Source: Methanomicrobiales archaeon (lineage in GTDB: Archaea; Halobacteriota; Methanomicrobia; Methanomicrobiales; Methanomicrobiaceae). Taken from it: a DNA stretch of 36,158 bases. The notes under the pieces were generated by a model. It did not search any database. It saw nothing but the letters and a program-made list of their open reading frames with translations, and had not been told where the DNA came from. Position 1 is the first letter of the stretch. Each line of letters begins with the position of its first letter. Positions 28,948 through 31,178 of the stretch are shown here, piece by piece. Location of the stretch: the NCBI GenBank assembly GCA_013415665.1, contig JAAEEQ010000003.1, positions 1 through 36,158 on the forward strand, given 5' to 3'. Position numbers and translations under genes: made by a program.

Positions 28948-29637
28948 CTACTCCCCGATGCCCTGCGGGCGGAGCAGGTGGACGGCCTCTGCGACCCGTG
29001 CGAGCCCCCCTTCAAGGAAGAGGATGGCGTATACCGACTCGACAAGCGTCCCTTTCAGATGATCGCGCTCGCCTGCCGCAGTATCGTTTTCGAGCCGGAT
29101 GCGATGCTCGTACAGATGCCACCGGTCACAGAGGCGCGCCATATTCGCATTGCTTTCGTACCGCTTCCGGCGCTCTGTCAGCAGTCCCGCATCCCTCACA
29201 TCGGGATTCCAGATCTCGCGGAGGACCCCGATTTTCAGCGCGGCATCGCCTATCCATGCAAGCGCCGCGGCAGCATCGGAGAGGCCCGCCAGCCGCTCCA
29301 GGTCGGCATCGGAAAGGGCACACGCTCCCGTGCCCCTGAAATGGTCGCCAATTTCTGCAAAGAGATTGCGGGTGCTGGGCTGAAACAATGCAAGGATGAC
29401 GAGATCGGGGCGGGAAAACGGGATGCCCGTGTCGGCCTCGATTGCCGGAACCACGTTCGCCCGGACGACCCGAATTGCATCCGCAACGGCGGCGAGCTGA
29501 TCGAGCCAGCGCCGCATTTTCGACCGATCATGCGCGCGGTCCGGCGGAAGGGACCTGCAATGCCTTGAAATACCCTCCTGTAGAACGGCAATATTTTCGG
29601 AAATTGGAACCTGTTCCCACGTAATCGACCTGTGCAT
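28948..29637 (-). CDS. RNase III-fold-like protein lacking two catalytic acids
   Basis: 229 residues. The C-terminal half resembles an RNase III nuclease domain: ALAWIGDAALKIGVLREIW corresponds to the LEFLGDAVL signature, and TLVESVYAILFLEGGLARV to the LADAFEALIGALYLDGG segment. Of the four usual metal-binding acids, Asp131 and Glu200 are kept, but the first Glu is Ala127 and the second Asp is Thr197. The N-terminal ~110 residues are helical with no family I know, and no dsRNA-binding domain follows. Cleavage is doubtful; RNA binding or a scaffold role is more likely. ATG 29637 follows GGAGAGG. Confidence 0.75.
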   Translation of the reverse strand: MHRSITWEQVPISENIAVLQEGISRHCRSLPPDRAHDRSKMRRWLDQLAAVADAIRVVRANVVPAIEADTGIPFSRPDLVILALFQPSTRNLFAEIGDHFRGTGACALSDADLERLAGLSDAAAALAWIGDAALKIGVLREIWNPDVRDAGLLTERRKRYESNANMARLCDRWHLYEHRIRLENDTAAGERDHLKGTLVESVYAILFLEGGLARVAEAVHLLRPQGIGE

Positions 29638-29675: not shown

Positions 29676-29683
29676 TTTATAAT
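29676..29683 (-). promoter_or_regulatory. TATA box of the RNase III-like gene
   Basis: ATTATAAA on the minus strand. Transcription would begin near 29653, giving a leader of about 16 nt that contains GGAGAGG. Confidence 0.6.
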
Positions 29684-29893
29684 ACGATGTCCCTTCGCCG
29701 CCCGATCCGGGTGAGAGGAAACATATATGTATGATAAGTGCATATCGGGATACGCCTCAGGAGGGGGAACCGCCTGACGGGCATGGCCACCGGTGCGGGC
29801 AGTCAGAGGCACCACCGGCGAGAGGCCTTGGCGCCGCATTGGTGGCACATTTGTTTCGTTTGCAATGCTGCCATAGGGTGGCGGGTACGCGGG

Positions 29894-29901
29894 ATATAAA
29901 A
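29894..29901 (+). promoter_or_regulatory. TATA box inside the gene-poor region
   Basis: ATATAAAA preceded by GGG; a start near 29923 is expected. No gene begins here that I can support. Confidence 0.5.
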
Positions 29902-30014
29902 CCGGCAATCATCCCGTGGACATGAACAACGCCATACGCATGGTGCCGGCAGGGCATGCAGGCAGAAACACAGAGCCATGATACATACCGGCCGAACCGG
30001 TCGGAAAACGGCAT

Positions 30015-30155
30015 ATGACCGGCAAGGAGAAGGTATGCATCACGGTGCCGGAGTACCATGTCGTCGGAAGCGGCAATAATCCTTCTGGGGCACCCGTCAT
30101 TTTCCGGGGTGCTTCTCTTTTTTGCAGTTTCTCCGCATTCAGCCGGGGGCCATGA
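30015..30155 (+). CDS. Possible 46-residue peptide
   Basis: Very tentative. The frame reads MTGKEKVCITVPEYHVVGSG at its start, with a plausible strand-like composition, but a strong terminator hairpin lies inside it and there is no ribosome-binding site. It is listed so that it is not lost. Confidence 0.15.
   Translation: MTGKEKVCITVPEYHVVGSGNNPSGAPVIFRGASLFCSFSAFSRGP
30090..30120 (+). terminator. Intrinsic terminator in gene-poor region
   Basis: GCACCC (30090-30095) pairs with GGGTGC (30107-30112) across an 11-nt loop and is followed by TTCTCTTTTTT. It has no annotated gene in front of it, which supports an unannotated transcript. Confidence 0.65.
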
Positions 30156-30344
30156 CCGCGAGGCAGACCGCCGGAGGGATGGCCAGGGCGTCATCCAGCG
30201 GCGAGAGAGCTCCACCATGCCCACGACACCGGCAGCGATGCATGCCGTGCCATGCCTGAAATGCCCGCCGGCTGCCCGGCGCTGCCCGGGATACGAAGCT
30301 ACTTCATACCGGCAGGAAAACATACGGCGAAGAGGAATGCGCGT

Positions 30345-31178
30345 ATGATCGATTCGTTTACCCTGCTCCTGCTCCTGTTCCTGCTGCTGTCCTTCCTCCC
30401 GATGGTGCAGCAGCGCCTGATCCAGGGAAAGCGCCTCCGGGTGATACGGGCGCTTGAGGTGAAACGCGGCACCCGCGTCATCACCCTGATCCACCGCCAG
30501 GAGACGATGAACCTGCTCGGCATCCCGATTGTGCGGTATATCGATATCAACGATTCCGAGGAAGTGCTCCGGGCAATCAGGCTGACACCGGAATCCATGC
30601 CGATCGATGTCGTCGTCCACACTCCCGGCGGCCTCGTGCTCTCCGCAGAACAGATTGCCATGGCGCTTGCCCGGCATGCAGCCCGGGTGACCATCTTCGT
30701 GCCGCATTATGCAATGTCAGGCGGAACCCTCCTCTGCCTGACCGCCGACGAAGTCGTCATGGATGAAAATGCCGTGCTCGGCCCCGTCGATCCCCAGCTC
30801 GGCGAATATCCGGCAGCATCCCTGCTCCGGGTCGTCGAACAGAAGGAATTCAAGGATATCGACGATAAAACGCTCATTCTTGCCGATATCGCCGCGAAAG
30901 CGCAGGTCCAGATGAAGGCGTTCGTCGCAAAGATGCTTCGCGACCGGATGGGGCAGGACGAGGCGGAGCGCATCGCCGGCGTGCTGACGGGAGGGCAGTG
31001 GACCCACGACTACCCCATCACCTGCGAAGAGGCGGCCGGCATCGGGCTGCCGGTCCGGACCGATCTCCCCGCCGAGATCTACGCGCTGATGGAGCTCTTC
31101 CCGCAGGCGATGCAGCGGCGGCCCTCGGTGGAATACATCCCGGTGCCGTACCGCAAGAACGGCACGAAAAAAGAGTAG
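30345..31178 (+). CDS. Membrane-anchored ClpP/SDH-type serine protease
   Basis: 277-residue protein of the serine dehydrogenase proteinase (SDH/ClpP-crotonase fold) family. Residues 3-20 are a membrane anchor. HTPGGLVLSAEQIAMALA is the oxyanion-hole loop, and Ser125 in HYAMSGGTLLCL is the expected nucleophile; AVLGPVDPQLGEYPA follows. The family likely degrades membrane or hydrophobic proteins. ATG 30345 has AGAGGA eight bases upstream; longer readings lack a membrane start. It is convergent with acsA. Confidence 0.9.
   Translation: MIDSFTLLLLLFLLLSFLPMVQQRLIQGKRLRVIRALEVKRGTRVITLIHRQETMNLLGIPIVRYIDINDSEEVLRAIRLTPESMPIDVVVHTPGGLVLSAEQIAMALARHAARVTIFVPHYAMSGGTLLCLTADEVVMDENAVLGPVDPQLGEYPAASLLRVVEQKEFKDIDDKTLILADIAAKAQVQMKAFVAKMLRDRMGQDEAERIAGVLTGGQWTHDYPITCEEAAGIGLPVRTDLPAEIYALMELFPQAMQRRPSVEYIPVPYRKNGTKKE

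Follow-up and report, generated by a model that had tools for sequence, protein, structure and literature searches.

Several similar modules are combined in one RNA by tandem-aptamer riboswitches, of which the glycine riboswitch is an example, and by protein-sponge RNAs such as CsrB and RsmZ. Apart from rRNA, SRP RNA and RNase P RNA, the large structured RNAs known from archaea are few. Among bacteria, the large ornate RNAs OLE, ROOL and GOLLD have been shown to be RNA-only oligomers (PMC12286853). We analysed a 36,158-nucleotide stretch of DNA from a Methanomicrobiales archaeon (the window), in which a sequence-only reading had pointed to a candidate small RNA in an intergenic gap. An RNA gene with conserved structure is borne out by our analysis, but its boundaries and its division into two RNAs are not; nor does the RNA appear to be merely a small one, since it belongs to a modular family spread across the order. 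The comparison with Rfam proposed in that reading yielded no model: the window had no match in Rfam 15 at the gathering threshold, with only two chance matches in the gap (E = 1.1 and 1.8), and homologues from other genomes of the order had none either, at E <= 1 for families f1 and f3 and at E <= 0.5 for f5 (families within the order are labelled f1 to f6). No description of the RNA was found in the open-licence literature. We therefore rate the family as a putative new class, with neither an Rfam model nor a description found in the searchable literature.

The gap and its predicted RNA gene

The gap is bordered by a minus-strand gene for an RNase III-domain protein, whose conserved start codon lies at ~29637, and by a plus-strand gene for an SDH/ClpP-class protease that begins at 30345. 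Only one genome, that of a same-genus sister species (G001), gave a strong DNA match, in which positions 29718-30093 align in one piece with 65% identity (E = 1e-33). The part 3' of position 29851 is significant by itself in this comparison, with a score of 32, whereas none of 150 shuffles scored above 15. An exact 20-mer from the RNA matched only the sister species among GTDB contigs, and with three mismatches allowed the search performed no better than its reversed control. The segment 29747-30095 folds with z = -4.59, a stability reached by none of 100 shuffles, and its minimum-energy structure includes P1, the helix that joins the two ends of the RNA.

The family context helps to place both ends of the gene. 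In 26 of 29 homologues, a TATA-like box, itself usually preceded by an A-rich BRE-like stretch, stands 27-32 nt ahead of a conserved GCC, and the window has the same arrangement ahead of its GCC(U)C with a distance of 31 nt; this element (29718-29731) is the likely promoter of the RNA. From the TATA distance, the start was set 6-8 nt before GCCUC; at the 3' side, the RNA would end somewhere from P1 (30091) to the T-run (30123). Runs of at least four T occur within 45 nt after P1 in 21 of the 29 homologues. The terminator read earlier at 30090-30120 was confirmed as a G+C hairpin with a 6-bp stem and a subsequent T6 at 30090-30123; its 11-nt loop exceeds the limit of the hairpin scanner, and hence it was not in the scan list. 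On sequence evidence, we conclude that the gap holds one noncoding RNA gene of ~345-375 nt, not two units (Table 1).

The remaining parts of the gap contain other elements. A second TATA-like site, noticed in the earlier reading upstream of the RNA, is present as TATTATAAA at 29676-29684 on the minus strand, ~40 nt ahead of the RNase III-like gene's conserved start codon, and is likely to be that gene's promoter. What is left of a membrane-protein gene, a piece of its C-terminus (LSPLDDALAIPPAVCLAVMAPG), lies on the minus strand at 30142-30207; the gene is presumably of a dolichol-kinase-like family and has an intact relative in another genome (G014, L047:4963-5574). This remnant accounts for the gap's 3' part as well as for a DNA match with the same genome at 30161-30207, which was accordingly rejected as RNA homology. 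A tRNA search of the gap found none.

Table 1. Coordinates of the features at the locus, with the evidence for each.
Feature	Position	Strand	Evidence or remark
RNase III-domain gene	28951-29637	-	PF00636, E = 9e-10; Mini-III-like active-site pattern; diverges from the RNA
Likely promoter: A-rich BRE-like GAAA and TATA-like ACATATATGT	29718-29731	+	spacing in homologues; same distance in sister species
Predicted noncoding RNA gene	29747-30123	+	conservation in sister species; folding stability; match to 3'-module covariance model (R2)
P1, 5' strand (GCCUCAGGAGG)	29754-29764	+	pairs with 30081-30091; end swapping; minimum-energy fold
Local hairpin, alternative to P1	29755-29780	+	pairs kept in sister species, one compensatory change
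5' module, degenerate in the window genus	29786-29846	+	position of module 1 of f1 (genus g8), f3 and f5 RNAs
Central long stem between modules	29852-29970	+	compensatory pairs relative to sister species
3' module	29976-30050	+	16-sequence alignment
P1, 3' strand (CCUUCUGGGGC)	30081-30091	+	end swapping; minimum-energy fold
Terminator: hairpin 30090-30095/30107-30112 and T6 30118-30123	30090-30123	+	sequence

Modular architecture and covariation

Pairing of the two ends is common to the family, and P1 amounts to 11 bp in the window. Across 29 homologues, the two ends of one RNA pair better with each other than with ends exchanged between RNAs (0 of 2000 permutations), the difference being small within f5. 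The G+C-rich stem that had been placed at 29757-29777 is real, although it extends over 29755-29780; it is 100% paired in the sister species and would compete with P1. The f5 RNAs have a comparable alternative to P1, and the local hairpin may represent a folding intermediate.

The predicted RNA is built from modules of ~100 nt, each with an outer helix, an inner hairpin and a CGGC loop that pairs with a GCCG receptor just 3' of the outer helix. In the 3' module, the outer helix is formed by 29976-29989/30032-30045 and the inner helix by 29997-30002/30017-30022, while the loop CGGCA (30009-30013) pairs with the receptor UGCCG (30046-30050). The 5' module consists of an outer helix (29786-29792/29840-29846), in which two compensatory changes are seen relative to the sister species, and an inner hairpin (29802-29810/29825-29832) with the loop ACCACCGGCGAGAG; its receptor has been lost, there being no GCCG 3' of the outer helix. 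Compensatory pairs in the central stem include 29860/29961, 29862/29959 and 29881/29932.

Covariation among homologues, named as a check in the sequence-only reading, proved massive. In an alignment of 16 full-length f5 RNAs, the structure comprises 117 pairs including three pseudoknots and is 91% paired. Changes on both sides affect 64 pairs and 184 cells, against 36 and 57 after shuffling and at most 28 and 46 in slid controls; because RNAalifold derived the structure from this very alignment, the comparison with the slid controls is biased in its favour, and relatedness inflates the shuffle test. For the 3' module, 16 sequences from f1, f3 and f5 gave 45 two-sided changes against 18 shuffled, a count that is if anything an underestimate, as one inner stem is partly misaligned by MAFFT. 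Loop-receptor cells are 97.5% paired in this alignment. Because this pairing is nearly invariant, its support comes from three lineages in which loop and receptor have changed together: the window genus with U.G to A-U, one RNA with CAGC/GCUG in module 3 only (L130), and an f4 RNA with CGGU/ACCG (L132). The change confined to module 3 shows that the loop and receptor of one module belong together.

The family, its RNase III-like neighbour and other readings of the gap

R2, a covariance model built on the 3' module, matched the window at 29959-30091 (E = 6.2e-8) and, at E <= 0.01, 47 of 232 Methanomicrobiales genomes, or 46 without the marginal G011 (E = 0.0086). The matches fall in f1 (5, G011 among them), f3 (10) and f5 (32). 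Within a sample of 393 genomes of the phylum, the RNA was found only in Methanomicrobiales and none elsewhere; the plasmids and phages searched gave no match. A one-module form of 100-150 nt occurs in three genomes of a fourth family, f4 (G126, G087 and G060). These matches are individually weak (E = 0.005-0.017), and the RNAs (L132, L134 and L135) agree with the family in P1, module layout and loop-receptor pairing, with L135 also having the promoter context of other members. Copies carry one, two or three modules depending on lineage, the three-module versions having been found in f5 by pattern scan. Many genomes of the order, most of f1 included, have no detectable copy, so that the RNA is either not essential to the order or has diverged beyond the model.

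Several further matches were discarded. Another f4 match (L133) overlaps long ORFs, while viral pattern matches (L098-L101) and three genome matches (L081, L091 and L092) look like coding sequence or chance. R1, a model built from two sequences of the 5' part, found no convincing homologue outside the genus, and its weak match in its own genome lies within an apparent truA coding gene.

In other genera, the RNAs that lie in divergent gaps beside orthologues of the RNase III-like gene begin with GCCUC and are made of the same parts: two hairpins with the loop AAACGGCUGA, ~200 nt apart and each followed by GGGGCCGAAC, and a CUGGGGC end that pairs with the start. RNase III-domain proteins are unusual in archaea, and an active site with two acidic residues, one Asp and one Glu, distinguishes Mini-III from classical RNase III. 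NCBIfam gave no match for the window protein, and its counterpart in the sister species scores far below the RNase III cut-off. The motifs LAWIGD and KG(T/S)LVES, with the two acidic residues of Mini-III, are kept in all four aligned proteins, pointing to a resemblance to Mini-III. Orthologues were found in five families of the order in an order-wide search.

It is possible, though on balance doubtful, that the RNA partners this protein or serves as its substrate, either processed by it or controlling its level, so that the two make one functional unit. RNA and gene are adjacent and divergent in f1 (genera g1 and g8) and in f3, and the protein keeps its two acidic residues. Both are present in the same 10 of 12 f3 genomes and neither in the other two, and in f1 the gene adjoins all four of the convincing RNAs (4 of 28 genomes). 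Shared descent, however, explains part of this co-occurrence and inflates it. Moreover, the RNA is not next to the gene in f5, where almost none of the 32 genomes with the RNA has a close orthologue and the genes beside the RNA vary, and in f4 no recognisable RNA adjoins the gene. Only for f1 and f3 is the RNase III-like neighbour a candidate partner or processing enzyme. Since the neighbours in f5 differ from those in f1 and f3, the RNA is independent and probably trans-acting. One f1 genome (G002) has a distant RNase III-like gene without the RNA; that gene directly adjoins one for archaeal RNase P RNA, in convergent orientation (L049, 6677-6996).

The sequence-only reading envisaged a transcript of ~200 nt running from a TATA box at 29894-29901 to the terminator, with a separate second RNA upstream, which we now consider very improbable. 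The box itself is there: ATATAAAA is a good archaeal TATA and is rare in the window (three occurrences in 36 kb against 0.32 expected), the terminator lies downstream, and a T-rich stretch follows the 5' module. In the consensus fold with the sister species, however, it lies in the hairpin loop of the conserved central stem, inside the longer RNA. The similarity between the two species spans the box, and its counterpart is ACATAAAC, a poor TATA; in the homologues, the promoter precedes GCCUC. The 206-nt unit then proposed (29920-30125) is unremarkable in stability (z = -0.98), folding no better than its shuffles, whereas the full RNA does. P1 joins the 5' and 3' ends of a single molecule, of which the supposed second RNA makes up the 5' part.

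Two readings retain still less credit. The RNA lies ~220 nt upstream of the protease gene on the same strand, and its pseudoknots recall those of ligand aptamers, as would suit a riboswitch or 5' leader, but a terminator intervenes and the genes downstream of homologues differ and are often on the opposite strand. In the sister species, the protease gene is absent at this place and acs lies downstream instead, so the conserved unit is not a protease-gene leader. An H/ACA-type guide RNA, suggested by the ACA that follows the 5' module (29847-29849), by GCCGAACA after many modules and by the presence of one to three hairpin units, is just as hard to sustain. No guide pocket with an ACA directly 3' of the lower stem is found in the modules, where the receptor GCCG intervenes and the strand ahead of the ACA is occupied by the loop-receptor pairing. 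All modules have similar single strands, although guides to different targets should differ; the spacing of the ACA differs between sister species, and Rfam gave no match.

A missed protein gene can be dismissed: the G+C-rich gap does contain ORFs of 60-126 aa, but, in keeping with the earlier verdict of no credible gene, those tested had no Pfam match, each frame has stops in some homologue so that none stays open across the family, indels relative to the sister species are not multiples of three, and translated similarity is indifferent to frame.

Archaeal RNase P RNA was also ruled out, being found elsewhere in the sister species and other relatives. The window's own assembly, which is 89% complete, yielded none, the gene probably being in the missing part.

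Proposed working and known systems

Taken as a whole, we are confident that the locus is best explained as a single noncoding RNA of ~345-375 nt, from a modular archaeal family without an Rfam model, that would act in trans as a scaffold or sponge. To judge from its architecture, the RNA would most likely serve as a multivalent scaffold for binding protein or ligand. The helices of a module are similar in length (outer ~11-13 bp, inner ~10-12 bp), and a purine-rich strand of ~9 nt (GACARAGA-like) is present on one side only; together with the pairing of the loop at the module base, this suggests that the hairpin is folded back. Each inner hairpin would bend at the purine-rich hinge and dock its loop at the base of the module. 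With its modules docked, a closed RNA would present as many as three equivalent binding sites and could then act in trans on a protein or ligand, as a scaffold or sponge. More tentatively, and with the odds against it, these may be RNAs of exchangeable modules that assemble either with the RNase III-like protein into a multi-subunit RNP or, by way of their identical loop-receptor contacts, into an RNA-only homo-oligomer.

Covariation supports the family at the level of an established one, and it spans four families of one methanogen order. Lineages differ in module number and so form a natural series of use to RNA structural biology, and the alignment, model and exact pairs make both the structure and the partner directly testable.

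The predicted RNA resembles archaeal RNase P and SRP RNAs in its comparable length and paired ends, but no homologue has an RNase P or SRP match. With archaeal H/ACA guide RNAs it shares one to three hairpin units, some followed by ACA-like trinucleotides, and it differs from them in its loop-receptor pseudoknot, its end-closing helix, the lack of variable guide pockets and of an Rfam match. Like tandem-aptamer riboswitches and protein-sponge RNAs, it places several similar modules of a binding type in one molecule; unlike these and CsrB/RsmZ, it has no constant downstream gene and no family match, and its modules are far larger than CsrA sites. OLE, ROOL and GOLLD differ in that the present RNA is archaeal, shorter (150-375 nt) and made of repeated, near-equivalent modules, with no sequence match in Rfam and no prophage link seen. 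It is nevertheless akin to them in being large, stand-alone and pseudoknotted, with loop pairings and no obvious protein partner (PMC12286853).
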